Origin: Candidatus Roizmanbacteria bacterium RIFCSPLOWO2_01_FULL_35_13
GTDB lineage: Bacteria > Patescibacteriota > Microgenomatia > UBA1406 > GWC2-37-13
Reading direction: 5' to 3'
Assembly (NCBI GenBank): GCA_001789635.1
Contig: MGAF01000014.1
Span: 1 to 33,837, forward strand
Length of the DNA stretch: 33,837 bases
Shown here: positions 16,859 through 33,837 of the stretch, piece after piece
Layout of the letters: each line of letters starts with the position of its first letter
Numbering within the stretch: position 1 is the stretch's first letter
Notes under the pieces: generated by a model
Databases searched by the model: none
The model's input: only the letters and a program-made list of their open reading frames with translations
What the model was told of the DNA's origin: nothing
Translations under genes and position numbers: made by a program

Positions 16859-16979
16859 AAATTTTTAGGTGGCGCGAAAGAACCTCCTTCGCCTTCGGCT
16901 TCGGAAGGTCAAGAAGGGAATGCTTGCCCCCTCGTAGCTTTAGCGGAGTGGGGAATTTCGCGACAGAATCTAAAAATTT
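16859..16979. repeat. large nested palindromic intergenic element
   Basis: Outer arms AAATTTTTAG/CTAAAAATTT, inner CGCGAAA/TTTCGCG, and a CCCCCTC-GTAGCTTTAGCG-GAGTGGGG hairpin. Confidence 0.7.
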
Positions 16980-22289: not shown

Positions 22290-22344
22290 GTCATTCTGGC
22301 TTGTTTACCCCACGTAGCTTTAGCGTAGTGGGATCCAGAATCGT
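22290..22344. repeat. GTCATTCTGG...CCAGAATC element carrying an inner CCCCACGTAGCTTTAGCGTAGTGGG hairpin
   Basis: CGTCATTCTGGCTTGTTTACCCCACGTAGCTTTAGCGTAGTGGGATCCAGAATCG. Confidence 0.75.
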
Positions 22345-26633: not shown

Positions 26634-29600
26634 GAGCTGCAGAAAAACTTGGAGGATCTTCTTGACTCTTTCCATTCGAACTCAAATTATTATCTTGCTG
26701 ATCTGTTTTATCATTTTCCACTGGATCTTCCTTTGCTTGAGAAATAGGTTTTTTTGTTTCGAATGGTTCAATTTTAGGAGGCTCGATAACCTGTTGCACT
26801 TTGGTTGAAGCACACTTACTGCATATGGCAGTTGAGTTTTCCTTTACCAAAGTCATGAAGTGATTACCGCAGGCTTCACAGAGGAAATTCTTCATTGGAT
26901 TTTTTTTCGCCTCTTCTGCCGACATCATCTCTACACTTTCTATATTAAAGATAAAGGCTTCTCCGTCGAAATCAATTTGGATTTGGTTGCCGGCGCTTAC
27001 TTTTTTCTCGATTATCAGCGTCGAAATCGGATTTTCAATCAGTTTTTGAATTGCCCTCCGCAAAGGTCTGGCTCCAAAGATCGGATCAAAACCTTCCCTG
27101 ACTATTTCTTTTACTGCGGCTTCGGTATAAATCAGTCCCATATCCTGGTCCTCAAGCAGTTTTCCTAAACTCTTAAGTTGCAGTCGTACTATCTTCATCA
27201 TATGAACGAACTTCAGGGGTTCGAAGATTATTACTTCGTCAAACCGGTTAAGAAGCTCGGGTCGGAAAAATTTCCGCAATTCTCCGGTAACTCTGTCTTT
27301 TATCAAATCGTATTTCTTTTTGTCTATTTCTTCATCTACTTTTCTTTTTTCTTCCAGTTCTTTCTCCAGAGGAAAGTCTTTACCGAAATAATCATGTAAG
27401 GAAAGCGTATTCCATTTACTCTTAGCGCTGTTCCTAAACCAGACGGTTTCACCAACCACAATTATCTCTTTTCCGATCGGTGAAAAAGTATGAATGTCCC
27501 AATAAGCAGTTGGGAATGTTTTTGTTACCGATTCAGATTCCTTTTTCTCTGGTTTTGCGCTGGTTGTCTGAATATTATTATCTCTCTTTATTTTTTCTTC
27601 CTTGTCCTCCGACTTGTCCCCCGAAGATTTATCGGAGGGGGAAGCTTTAGCGAAAGAGGATTCAAATTCACTGCCGGCAAAATAGTCCTTCAAGTGTCCG
27701 GTCTGCCAGTCGTTCAATCCGGCCTTTCTTAACCAGTATCTGTCTTTATAACTTACTATTTCCTTTTCATCAGGTGAAAATGCATGGGTTTTTAATTTGG
27801 CTGTCGGCAATTGTTCATCCGGAGCATCAGGAATTGCATTCACCACAACTCCTTCTTTAAAGTACTCAATCAAGGAATTGGTCTTCCAGGATTTTGCCGT
27901 TGTTGTGGGTCTGATGAATATTTGCCCCCCTTTGGTAATTACCTCTTCCCCTTTCGGAGAAATTGCATGCGTAGTAAAACCTTGGATTGGAAAATCTGTC
28001 CTCTCCTTGCCCGGAGCTGCTTCTATAACAGGAGGTTTTCCCTCTGTAGCTTCAGCAGAAGCGGGCTTTTCTATTTCCTGTCCGGCAAAATAATCGAGAA
28101 GCACACCGTCTTCCCATGATATTGTACTAGGATTTTGCTCTTTAATTTCCTTTTTATCCTCGATTAAATTGTCTGTTAAATCCGCTGAAGATCTTTGAAA
28201 ATACTTTGATCCGATTGTCAGGATTTCCCTACCACTTGGAGAAAAGGTGTAGCTTGATAAATACGGCGGTTCTTCAATCTCAGCTTTATCGCTTTTGATC
28301 ATCTCATCCTGTATCATCTTTGTCCCAATATTTGATGTGCAGATTACAACAGTGTTTTTAAATGAGATAACGTGTCCTTTATTGTCTGTCAATCTACCAT
28401 CATCCAGAATCTGCAGTAGTATATTAAATATATCGGGATGGGCTTTTTCCACTTCGTCGAATAGGACTACCGAATATGGTTTTCTCCGGACAACCTCTGT
28501 CAATTTTCCGCCTTCTTCATAACCGACATATCCTGGCGGTGCTCCTAATAGTTTGGCTACCTCGTGTCTTTCCATGTATTCTGTCATGTCGAAACGGATC
28601 ATAGCTTCTTCCTGACCGAACAAAACTTCCGCCAAAGTTTTTGCCAGTTCGGTTTTCCCGACACCTGTCGGACCGAGAAATACAAAGCTGCCGATCGGTC
28701 TCTGAGTCGATTTAAGACCGGCCCTACCTCTTCTGACTGCCCCGGAAACCGCGGTTACCGCGATGTTCTGACCAATTAACCTTTCATGCATGATTTTCTC
28801 CAGTTGTGTCAGTTTTCCCAGTTCCGAATCGGATATTTTTGAAATAGGTATACCTGTCCAGCGGGAAACAATATCTTTGATTATGTCCGGGCTGATGGCA
28901 GATGTAGTCTGGGCCTTTTTCATGGCAAATTCATCTCTTTTTTCTTTCAAGCCGGATTCTATATCTGCGACCTTGGACCGTAATATTCTTACTTTTACTC
29001 TGTCTCCTTTTTTTTCGGCTTCCTGCACTTCCTGGTTAAGTTCAGAAACCCTGGTATCCAGCGATTTAATTTCTTCAGGTAATGATATCAAAGGCAGACG
29101 GACGGCTGACGCAGCTTCATCAATAAGATCAACTGCTTTATCAGGCAAAAATCTGTCCCCTACATATCTTTTTGAAAGTTTAACAGCCGCTTCAATTGCA
29201 TCGTCAGGAATTTTAACCCTGTGAAAAGCTTCATATTTATCTTTAATCGCTTTAACCATCTTTATTGCCTGCTCAATGGATGGTTCCGGAACCAATATGG
29301 GCTGGAATCTTCTCTCGAGCGCCGGATCCTTTTCTATATATTTTCTGTACTCGGTAAGGGTTGTTGCCCCAATAAGCTGGAGTTCTCCGCGGGCTAAAGC
29401 CGGTTTAAGAAAGTTTGAGACATCCATGGCATTTTCACCCGATGAACCCGCCCCGACTATATTATGAATTTCATCAATAAAAAGTATTATCTGCCCTTTA
29501 CTAGCCTGTACCTGCTCGATCAGTTCCTTCATTCTCTCTTCAAATTCTCCCCGGTGTGAAGCGCCGGCAATAATACTCATCAGATCAAGTTGCAATATTC

Positions 29601-30637: not shown

Positions 30638-31063
30638 TTATGTAGGAGTCTTTTCGCTACGTCTCCTGATCTTTGTTAAAAAGTCTTCCGGTTTGACAAT
30701 TTTTGTTTTTTTCCATTTTTTATTTAGCAAATCCAGCAAATCCTTATCTCTGGTTATAATAAATTCAGCTTTACTAGTCTCAGCTAACTCTAGGATAAAA
30801 TTATCTTGTTTGTCTCTACAGACCGATATTTTTATCCTCGGTTCATACAATATTGCTTTATTCTCTAAAAGAAATAAAAGTTTGTCAGATGCCTCTTTAG
30901 ATGCTCCAAGTTCTTTGAACTTTCTCAAAACTTCTTTTTTTAATTCCTGAGAAATAAACAGACTAAGTTTTTCTTCCACAATTTGATCAATAATTTTTCG
31001 AGAAAAACCTTTAAATAAAAAAGCAGACAACAGAATATTGGTATCAAGAATAATATTATACAT
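30638..31063 (-). CDS. PIN-domain toxin (VapC-like)
   Basis: MYNIILDTNILLSAFLFKGFSRKI...ELAETSKAEFIITRDKDLLDL; overlaps upstream antitoxin by 8 nt. Confidence 0.88.
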   Translation of the reverse strand: MYNIILDTNILLSAFLFKGFSRKIIDQIVEEKLSLFISQELKKEVLRKFKELGASKEASDKLLFLLENKAILYEPRIKISVCRDKQDNFILELAETSKAEFIITRDKDLLDLLNKKWKKTKIVKPEDFLTKIRRRSEKTPT

Positions 31064-31346
31064 TTTCCAGAAGCTTATAAAAATCTTCCTCCGTTAATTT
31101 TTCTTTTTTTATACCGCGTTTTGCCAAAAACTTATCGCTTAACTTCACGCCTTCTTGCTTTAATAATTCATACGCTCTTCTGACTTCTTTATCCACCTCT
31201 TTCTTTCTGCTCAATACGTCCCTAAAATAGACTTCCGATAAAAGCACCTTGACGATCTCAGCTTCTGACAATAATCTGTACTTCATCTGAAGATAAGCAA
31301 ATACTTTGTCCAATTCCGGAGTTCTGGTAATTCTAATTTGTTGCAT
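31056..31346 (-). CDS. putative antitoxin paired with the PIN toxin
   Basis: 96 aa, basic N-terminus, directly upstream and overlapping the PIN gene. Confidence 0.7.
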   Translation of the reverse strand: MQQIRITRTPELDKVFAYLQMKYRLLSEAEIVKVLLSEVYFRDVLSRKKEVDKEVRRAYELLKQEGVKLSDKFLAKRGIKKEKLTEEDFYKLLENV

Positions 31347-31348
31347 AT

Positions 31349-31384
31349 ACTACCTATATTAAGGTATTAACTACCTTTTGTCAA
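31349..31384 (-). promoter_or_regulatory. promoter/operator of the first TA operon
   Basis: Reverse strand TTGACA-17 nt-TAATAT with repeated GGTAGT and GGTAGTTAATACC inside; start codon 10 nt after the -10. Confidence 0.55.
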
Positions 31385-31408
31385 GCCTAAATTTAGGTTC
31401 TGACGCAG

Positions 31409-31828
31409 TTAAGCAATAGCATTCAATAACTCTTTTGGAGAAACTATTATTATTTTAGAAATTTTTATTTTTATCAAAGGATTATTCAGATGCTTTTTAT
31501 CCAAAGTAACAAGGTAGCTGCATCCGGTCAAAATTGCTCCGGCTAGGACATGCCTATCTTTTTCGTTAACTATTTCTGCATAAGTTTTAGTTTCGCTCTG
31601 CTTAATTTTTTCCCTGACAATAAAATTGCTGTCTTTTATGAATTGTTTAGGACTAGCTTTTCGATCTCTAAACTTATTTATATTGTCTTCCACTTCTTCT
31701 ATTACAGTTTGAGTTGTAATACCAACAATATCCCTCAATTTAACAAAGTCCGTTAATTTTCTCGAGCTTCCGCTTTCCGAATAAATAGCAGAAAAAATAA
31801 CCGAAGCATCAAAAAAAACCTTAATCAT
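31409..31828 (-). CDS. PIN-domain toxin
   Basis: MIKVFFDASVIFSAIYSESGSSRKL...DRHVLAGAILTGCSYLVTLDKKHL. Confidence 0.88.
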   Translation of the reverse strand: MIKVFFDASVIFSAIYSESGSSRKLTDFVKLRDIVGITTQTVIEEVEDNINKFRDRKASPKQFIKDSNFIVREKIKQSETKTYAEIVNEKDRHVLAGAILTGCSYLVTLDKKHLNNPLIKIKISKIIIVSPKELLNAIA

Positions 31829-31833
31829 TTGGC

Positions 31834-31940
31834 TAAGGGCTCGTCAATAAATAACTTTATAGTTATTTATTGATACGGCCCTTTGTGCCGCGTATTCAAC
31901 TTTAATAATAGTTAAATTATTATTTTACGCGGCCTAACTT
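31834..31940 (-). other. structured two-hairpin element, copy A
   Basis: CTAAGGGCTCGT-[CAATAAATAACT TTAT AGTTATTTATTG]-ATACGGCCCTTTGTGCCGC...GCGGCCTAACTT; AAGGGC/GCCCTT closing stem, CCGCGTA/TACGCGG second stem. Confidence 0.8.
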
Positions 31941-32207
31941 TTCTAATTTCTTATCAATTTTGAGAGCTAACTTTTTAGGAAGCACATCATCCTTCAGAAA
32001 TTTATTCAATTCTGCCTGCGAATATACTCTATAAGGAGTAGTTTTTTCAGTCTGTTCGAAAATTATCTTATTTGCAATTTTCTTGGCTTTTATCAACTCA
32101 CCCTCTTCAAATCCTAGCTCTTCCCGCCAGGCTTTTGGAATTGTCACCATACCCTTTGTCAAAACTCGCAGCCACTCTTCTTGTGTTTGGCTAATTTGTT
32201 GGGTCAT
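31920..32207 (-). CDS. AbrB/MazE (SpoVT)-type antitoxin
   Basis: WLRVLTKGMVTIPKAWREELGFEEGELIKAKKIANKIIFE. Confidence 0.88.
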   Translation of the reverse strand: MTQQISQTQEEWLRVLTKGMVTIPKAWREELGFEEGELIKAKKIANKIIFEQTEKTTPYRVYSQAELNKFLKDDVLPKKLALKIDKKLEKLGRVK

Positions 32208-32226
32208 CTTTATTTAGTTTAACTAT

Positions 32227-32308
32227 CTAAGGGCTCGTTCGTTAATAACATTAAATGCTATTAACGATTACGGCCCTTTGTACCGCATCTATAGATGCGG
32301 CCTAACTT
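32227..32308 (-). other. structured two-hairpin element, copy B
   Basis: CTAAGGGCTCGT-[TCGTTAATA ACATTAAATGC TATTAACGA]-TTACGGCCCTTTGTACCGCATCTATAGATGCGGCCTAACTT; same closing stem, perfect CCGCATCTA/TAGATGCGG dyad. Confidence 0.8.
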
Positions 32309-32396
32309 CTTACATTGTAAACTTTCCAACTATATTTGTCAAGTTCCGCTTGCTTTTGTAACTATTCACAGTTCTTAACAAAGATTATAATCAATT

Positions 32397-32478
32397 GTCA
32401 TTGCGAGCGGTGAGTTTTGGAGCGAAGCAATCTCATTAATGGGATTGCTTCGTCGTCGTTCCTCCTCCTCGCAATGAC
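32397..32478. repeat. GTCATTGCGAG-type palindromic repeat
   Basis: GTCATTGCGAG...GAAGCAATC...GATTGCTTC...CTCGCAATGAC. Confidence 0.85.
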
Positions 32479-32506
32479 ATAGTCTGGTATAGTTTTTTCA
32501 AGAAGC

Positions 32507-32538
32507 GTGAACTCTTACTTGCTTTTATAAGAGTTCAC
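32507..32538. repeat. perfect 11-bp inverted repeat
   Basis: GTGAACTCTTA-CTTGCTTTTA-TAAGAGTTCAC. Confidence 0.8.
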
Positions 32539-32555
32539 TCTACTTGAGACAGAAA

Positions 32556-32646
32556 TGTCATTCTGGTCCCTAAAGGGATTGTAACTTGTCCAGAATCGTT
32601 GTTAGATTCTGGAGTCGCTCCAAAACTCATCGCTCCCTAGAATGAC
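32556..32646. repeat. double GTCATTCTGG/CCAGAATC palindromic repeat
   Basis: GTCATTCTGG...CCAGAATC...GATTCTGGAG...CTAGAATGAC. Confidence 0.8.
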
Positions 32647-32780
32647 GTAATGATATAGTCTGTTCTAAATTTGTCAAGACTTGTGAATAGTTACTAATTT
32701 TATGATAAATTAAAACATGAAAAAAACTCCAAAAATATACAAAGAAAAACAAATAATTAAAATCATGCTATAATATCGAT

Positions 32781-33047
32781 ATGAGAAAAATAAAGCTTTT
32801 TAATTATATTACGGTTAATTCTAAAATTCGTTTTGGCAAACCAATTATAGAGGGAACACGAGTCCCAGTTGATTTAATTGTAGGTAAAATAGCTGGCGGA
32901 ATGAATGTTGATGATGTTATGAAAGAATACGATCTTACTAAAAAAAAGGTGCTGGCCACCCTTCAATATACTGCAAAAATTATTTTCGGAAGAAAGAGTT
33001 GCCGTTATATGAACGCTGTTATCGATGAAAATCTACCTCGTTTTTGA
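32781..33047 (+). CDS. DUF433 antitoxin-like protein carrying the first residues of a lost partner toxin
   Basis: ITVNSKIRFGKPIIEGTRVPVDLIVGKIAGGMNVDDVMKEYDLTKKKVLATLQY; C-terminus MNAVIDENLPRF resembles the start of a DUF5615-type PIN-like toxin. Confidence 0.8.
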   Translation: MRKIKLFNYITVNSKIRFGKPIIEGTRVPVDLIVGKIAGGMNVDDVMKEYDLTKKKVLATLQYTAKIIFGRKSCRYMNAVIDENLPRF

Positions 33048-33127
33048 ATATCTTCTGACTTAATAATAAAAATATATATTTTGTCCACTTAATATGAATA
33101 CTGATTTATCGGCGGGGATGCGTTTTT

Positions 33128-33499
33128 TTAAATTATTTTTTTTCTCACAAAATTTAAAAATTCCCTAAAAATTTCTTGCAGCGAAAAATTTCTTCTTAAT
33201 CTAAAAGGAGATCCTTTAACTTTATCATCGGTTTTATCGTGGAAGTGCAAAGGAAATGATTCTACTTTTTTCCATTTTCTATCAGGTGTATTGTCAACTC
33301 TATAAATACTTCCGTCTACATGATTTCTCTCCCAATGGATAGAAAATCTTTGTGTTTTGAGTTTAATGGTAAAATAAAAATCGATAAAGCTTTTATCTTT
33401 GAGATAAATCCGTAACTTGATATCGAGATTATGAGTAGAAAGGACTATGTCCGAAAACTCAACTTCGGCAATCCGAGCAAATTTTGAAAACTTTTCCAT
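33128..33499 (-). CDS. putative toxin, DUF6516/TumE-like
   Basis: IHWERNHVDGSIYRVDNTPDRKWKKVESFPLHFHD...SLQEIFREFLNFVRKKI. Confidence 0.55.
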   Translation of the reverse strand: MEKFSKFARIAEVEFSDIVLSTHNLDIKLRIYLKDKSFIDFYFTIKLKTQRFSIHWERNHVDGSIYRVDNTPDRKWKKVESFPLHFHDKTDDKVKGSPFRLRRNFSLQEIFREFLNFVRKKII

Positions 33500-33747
33500 A
33501 TAGACTTTGGGGCGATCTCTAACTTTTTTAATTCTATCTCTAACTTTTCTTTCTCACCAAATAGATAGTCGAGTAAATAGATATCCTCTCCTACTTCTTT
33601 CTCACTAAGTTTTCCTTTTTCAAACAAAAGATCAAAATCATCGATTGTTTTTACCCCATGTTTGGAAGTGATGCGAAAAATTTCGCTTTCTATCAATCGA
33701 AATTTCTCAATTAGAATAATTGTTCTGCTTTTATCATCTATAGTCAT
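33445..33747 (-). CDS. putative antitoxin paired with the TumE-like ORF
   Basis: Upstream and overlapping the toxin-like ORF; ATG at 33747 (MTIDDKSRT) more plausible than the track start. Confidence 0.5.
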   Translation of the reverse strand: MTIDDKSRTIILIEKFRLIESEIFRITSKHGVKTIDDFDLLFEKGKLSEKEVGEDIYLLDYLFGEKEKLEIELKKLEIAPKSIWKSFQNLLGLPKLSFRT

Positions 33748-33837
33748 AGATAAAAGTATACACCTGTTTGACTTTATTTGCAAAACTCACAGTTCCACTT
33801 GCTTTTTGTTGTGTTTTTTTAATACCACTGCGCTATC

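Follow-up and report, generated by a model that had tools for sequence, protein, structure and literature searches.

Copies A and B, the two hairpin-forming repeats that lie before the antitoxin and the toxin gene of an AbrB-PIN operon in the window (the whole stretch of 33,837 nucleotides analysed here), very probably arose as insertions of members of a single family: small, non-autonomous, MITE-like mobile elements of CPR bacteria, mobilised in trans. The family is a tiny mobile DNA repeat of many CPR bacteria, previously unreported as far as could be found; no report of a CPR repeat of this kind appeared in the literature searched, whose scope takes in few of the subscription journals. The mobile DNA of CPR bacteria has hardly been described so far, and the family can serve to trace movement between CPR lineages and as a concrete target in the search for a recombinase.

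The features of the operon are listed below, the limits of both copies being derived from 95 copies of the family, with the flanking triplets counted in.

31409..31828, minus strand: PIN-domain toxin gene (Pfam PIN_3, 3.3e-10; homologues of up to 62% identity)
31833..31937, plus strand: copy A, built as C + TAA + two hairpins + TAA (model R1, 109.6 bits); first hairpin 31833-31885, second hairpin 31887-31933, flanking TAA at 31834-31836 and 31935-31937
31920..32207, minus strand: AbrB/MazE-type antitoxin gene (open reading frame; Pfam MazE_antitoxin, 4.7e-07; homologues)
32227..32305, plus strand: copy B, the version with a short second hairpin (model R1, 82.6 bits); first hairpin 32227-32280, second hairpin 32282-32301, flanking TAA at 32228-32230 and 32303-32305
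32314..32342, minus strand: promoter-like TTGACA-17-TACAAT upstream of copy B (consensus scan, 11/12 matches)

Both copies follow the plan C-TAA-GGGC-T-CGT[variable stem]ACG-GCCC-TTTG-T-(G/A)CCGC[variable]GCGGCC-TAA, which folds as two adjacent hairpins. They have in common the blocks CTAAGGGCTCGT, ACGGCCCTTTGT(G/A)CCGC and GCGGCCTAA, as well as the bulged T in GGGC-T-CGT / ACG-GCCC, and the arms of their variable stems (CAATAAATAACT/AGTTATTTATTG in copy A, TCGTTAATA/TATTAACGA in copy B) differ in sequence with the pairing kept. The original prediction had described two copies with conserved end blocks, a T-bulged closing stem in each, and stems that diverge yet remain complementary. Its sequences, coordinates and distances were essentially correct: the blocks and the closing stem are present upon re-reading of the sequence, the divergent but complementary stems are borne out in A, in B and, as covariation, across the family, and the distances of ~6 nt to the PIN ATG and ~20 nt to the AbrB ATG are measured as 4 nt from copy A and 19 nt from copy B. 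The CTT that extends as far as 32308 is flank, outside copy B.

In general, the element is short and without coding capacity (about 45-115 bp, typically 65-117 bp, with single-hairpin forms of about 45 bp), and it usually consists of two adjacent hairpins. Variants with an additional hairpin between the first and the second were observed at L169:2017-2181 and L179:2045-2160. In the genome of the window, a gapped pattern gave 5 matches and, when reversed, 0, so that the matches are not due to chance; a pattern search returned three further exact or near-exact copies besides A and B, and a covariance model raises the total to six. The original prediction had proposed searching CPR genomes with such a model, and further copies were indeed found there, 25 of the 374 genomes in the class of the window's genome carrying 1-10 copies each. 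In a phylum-wide set of 380 genomes only two hold copies, namely the window's own genome and one other of its class. Among 84,980 species genomes, 31 stretches match the two conserved blocks. CPR genomes account for 29 of them, all structured copies (Gottesmanbacteria, Roizmanbacteria, Daviesbacteria, Lloydbacteria and others, including one isolate titled only 'bacterium'); the two non-CPR matches (L028 and L043) lack the structure and are chance hits. Since three copies occur in Lloydbacteria, which are Parcubacteria and not Microgenomates, the element probably does not keep strictly to a single class. Searching viral contigs for the element gave 0 matches, and the curated covariance models of Rfam 15, run on 2.5 kb, returned a single chance match that falls outside both copies.

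Several observations point to movement. The triplet before GGGC is identical to that after GGCC in 64 of the 95 copies; it is mostly TAA, usually preceded by C, with TAT, TTA and AAA also seen. Where the upstream triplet is other than TAA, 11 of 26 copies still match, versus 1.5 expected, a value reached in 0 of 2000 shuffles. The triplets are direct repeats (TTA..TTA, TAT..TAT), and their identity is thus not a matter of base pairing. The upstream C is replaced by T in a few copies that retain the downstream C, which suggests that this C lies outside the target duplication. About one third of the copies have no matching triplet, reflecting either decay or a duplication that is not universal. 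Empty sites were identified at the nucleotide level for the first copy on contig C57, which has uninterrupted counterparts in the congeners G005 and G003, and uninterrupted counterparts of the second C57 copy occur in G005 and G004. At the first of these sites the target triplet is AAA and the element is flanked by TAA (5') and AAA, an imperfect duplication in which one base was either changed or brought in. Moreover, 40 of 91 copies have their nearest relative within their own genome (4.7 expected), and two copies of genome G022 at different sites have a common internal deletion, implying that the shortened form has also moved. There are also forms with a single hairpin, both ends and TAA flanks. 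The suggestion in the original prediction of a mobile hairpin that landed twice in the operon is consequently upheld by dispersed copies, 3-bp flanking duplications, amplification within genomes and empty sites; random spread together with empty-site homologues, the outcome it had named as speaking for a passive mobile repeat over a TA leader, is what was found.

The fold is kept throughout the family. When 27 copies are simply aligned with MAFFT, pairing is seen in 95.4% of cells, compared with 83.3% when shuffled and at most 50.5% when slid, and double changes, one in each partner, affect 14 of 29 pairs (91 cells versus 26.5 shuffled). Double changes extend to 28 of 29 pairs (359 cells versus 92 shuffled) in a larger alignment of 100 distinct rows from 101 matches; this alignment is model-fitted, and a few weak antisense matches are among its rows. 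G-U pairs account for 20 of the 929 paired cells of the variable stem, a scarcity that would be unusual for an RNA. In nearly all copies one side of the first hairpin retains a bulged T and the other side an offset of two bases. One G022 copy (L152:7082) has the second hairpin common to the other G022 copies and a different first hairpin, which appears, as read from these sequences, to be swapped as a module. The retained complementarity of divergent stems, which the original prediction took to suggest selection on structure, is borne out by the covariation, which is massive and almost devoid of G-U pairs, but an RNA-level reading of it is not supported; a folded DNA strand, or the repair of palindromes by template switching, fits the preserved pairing better than an RNA does.

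The position of both copies within the operon has predicted consequences. Some 20 homologous AbrB-PIN pairs of other genomes have their genes adjacent or overlapping (ATGA in L212; GTGA in L213 and L214) and none has the hairpin of copy A, out of which the last codons of the antitoxin gene of the window (LGRVK*) are read; these operons without the insertion add to the evidence for movement. Deleting copy A and one TAA in silico yields an antitoxin ending in ...KLEKLAK* that overlaps the toxin ATG as ATGA. Insertion of copy A would accordingly have abolished the antitoxin-toxin overlap and placed a strong hairpin 4 nt before the toxin start, with the predicted cost of opening that start rising from 9.2 to 20.0 kcal/mol. 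This hairpin should lower translation of the toxin, the predicted net outcome being less toxin per antitoxin. Because copy B is situated between the promoter-like site and the antitoxin ATG, it would be transcribed as the stable 5' leader of the operon, leaving the antitoxin start open, whose predicted access is little changed (4.2 versus 5.9 kcal/mol). A passive repeat can in this manner rewire a TA operon, by providing a hairpin leader and uncoupling toxin translation from that of the antitoxin.

This same arrangement is what favours the idea, put forward in the original prediction, of a cis-acting structured RNA (a leader, or a target of the toxin) whose evolved role is to control both genes of TA operons: copy B follows a strong promoter-like site, copy A makes the toxin start costlier to open, and a third copy of the window's genome (on contig C43) also precedes a Phd-PIN operon. 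However, the transcribed element strand of the C43 copy is opposite to that of A and B, and the orientation of the element relative to genes is mixed in general. When the genes beside the copies were surveyed, as had been called for, they proved to be of all kinds and mostly not TA genes, glycosyltransferases being the commonest among 150 neighbouring proteins, with PIN in 4 and AbiEii in 3; simple counts, made without a matched control set, indicate no enrichment of TA genes. Considering, in addition, that (i) G-U pairs are very rare, (ii) homologous AbrB-PIN operons are devoid of the element, and (iii) its distribution is patchy and multicopy, TA control by RNA is mostly refuted as the origin of the element and is very unlikely to account for it. 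Covariation together with a position before genes does not alone prove a riboregulator. In 37 of 73 open frames that run into a copy, the stop codon falls within the flanking triplet, as would fit insertions being tolerated where genes end; a specific targeting of stop codons was not accepted, the target carrying stop codons on both strands.

The remaining alternatives concern how the pairing is kept and how the element moves. Palindrome arms corrected by template switching during replication, with no recognition of the fold, would explain the covariation and be compatible with mobility. Double changes vastly exceed single changes and G-U intermediates, as expected from a mutational bias that would act in this way on any palindrome. 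On the contrary, arm correction would erase the T bulge and the 2-nt offset of the first hairpin, both kept in nearly all copies, and the first hairpin of L152:7082 was replaced whole with the second one kept; this explanation is possible, albeit on the unlikely side. An element of the REP/RAYT type, whose hairpin is recognised in single-stranded DNA by the Y1 (HUH) transposase that moves it, would likewise have conserved-bulge hairpins with a free distal stem sequence, and Y1/RAYT genes are frequent in carrier genomes, with eight in that of the window (G000). This origin is nevertheless improbable: the foot of the hairpin carries neither a GTAG nor a CGTC tag in the 95 copies read, direct 3-bp repeats are unexpected for the Y1 class, no copy lies near the Y1 genes of G000 and G022, most of those in G000 being accompanied by other palindromes, and a copy in L065 lies about 900 bp from a Y1 gene without flanking it. 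Scarcely credible are attC-like integron recombination sites, with the AbrB gene as the cassette between B and A. Two folded sites with a bulge do flank one small antitoxin gene, and GTTAGGC occurs on the minus strand of both; but this box needs a flanking C, which other copies do not conserve, the GTTRRRY / RYYYAAC core boxes are missing, the element has two hairpins where attC has one, its copies nearly always stand alone, and the homologous operon holds antitoxin and toxin together without such sites.

As for the preferred reading of a small element mobilised in trans, its ends are imperfectly inverted (GGGCTCGTYC / GGCCGCATCC, where GGGCTCGTCC and GGCCGCATCC match at 7/10), and in L128 the inverted ends are longer, both running on into CGTTAATAAC when read by eye. 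An enzyme supplied in trans would recognise the folded or inverted ends and insert the element at C-TAA-like sites with a 3-nt stagger, and the distal stems would be free to drift, and to be swapped as modules, since only their pairing would matter. A more specific and doubtful version holds that an undescribed CPR recombinase may recognise the element in the form of a folded single DNA strand and yet leave 3-bp duplications, with nothing but the pairing and the bulged foot being of consequence and the hairpins thus swappable. We know of no HUH/REP, attC or ordinary DDE MITE system that combines folded-strand recognition with 3-bp target duplications.

Genome-wide searches for lone ends in 10 carrier genomes, all incomplete assemblies, returned no autonomous, transposase-bearing copy: every match was a complete copy, a deletion form, a mini with a single hairpin or due to chance. 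A 3.6-kb end pair on contig C23 of genome G212, considered as an autonomous copy, is actually made up of one complete mini-element and, separately, a 3' fragment. The ends of the element were not found at the DDE_Tnp_1 and rve transposase loci of 16 carrier genomes, nor does it flank any of the 44 Y1/RAYT loci of G000, G022 and seven other carriers, where one copy is an unrelated neighbour. That these searches yielded neither a mobilising enzyme nor an autonomous copy tells against the preferred reading, as do the imperfect duplication at the first C57 site and the copies whose triplets do not match. The mobiliser may be absent from the incomplete carrier genomes, extinct, or of another class.

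Bacterial MITEs of the kind with hairpin-forming transcripts generate 2-bp TA duplications. The members of this group, including Correia elements, ERIC, RUP and RPE (reviewed in PMC10969869), are, like the CPR element, short, non-coding, inverted-ended, patchy and intergenic, with a flanking duplication and a structure when transcribed. The CPR element differs from them in its ends, its 3-bp duplications, its CPR hosts, the lack of any parent IS found, and its pair of adjacent hairpins, in which the distal stems stay paired under free sequence variation. It behaves as a bacterial MITE does in being short and non-coding, in its terminal inverted repeats and 3-bp duplication, and in having dispersed copies as well as empty sites, save that no parent transposon was found (PMC10969869). 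It is labelled MITE-like rather than MITE because none of the loci searched holds a parent transposon with the same ends. REP palindromes, which are associated with RAYT (Y1) transposases (PMC3733652), are similarly small, with a conserved foot and bulge, and often sit beside gene ends; unlike them, the CPR element has no GTAG/CGTC tag, is not next to the Y1 genes tested and has direct flanking repeats. Integron attC sites also keep structure while sequence varies and have an extrahelical base, whereas the CPR element lacks conserved core boxes, folds as two hairpins, occurs as solitary copies and has flanking duplications.

Other repeats were also observed. Most of the Y1/RAYT-like genes of G000 (L082, L083, L084, L086, L087) have a palindrome of their own (TTACACCTGAAAGGTGTAA, CCACCCGACGGGTGG, CACACCCTGAGGGTGTG, AACAACCCTGAGGGTTGTT), and some of these palindromes recur away from the genes. 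In Gottesmanbacteria GWC1_43_10 (L065:1140-1920), inverted GGGACGGTCCTTTT-like motifs bracket a Y1 gene and represent a separate REP type. The end of the contig holds a TA-like gene cluster (window 30638-33783) composed of PIN with a 96-aa partner, AbrB with PIN, DUF433, and TumE with a likely upstream partner. Right upstream of the AbrB-PIN operon, a 343-bp foldback block (window 32355-32697), its inverted ends 28 nt long and enclosing a TGTCATTGCGAG...CTCGCAATGACA palindrome, constitutes a second, different repeat, whose TGTCATTGCGAG motif recurs in L208 (contig C43). Finally, four related 25-nt palindromes CCCCNCGTAGCTTTAGCGNAGTGGG, at window positions 16928-16952, 22308-22332, 27617-27641 and 28040-28064, form another dispersed repeat.
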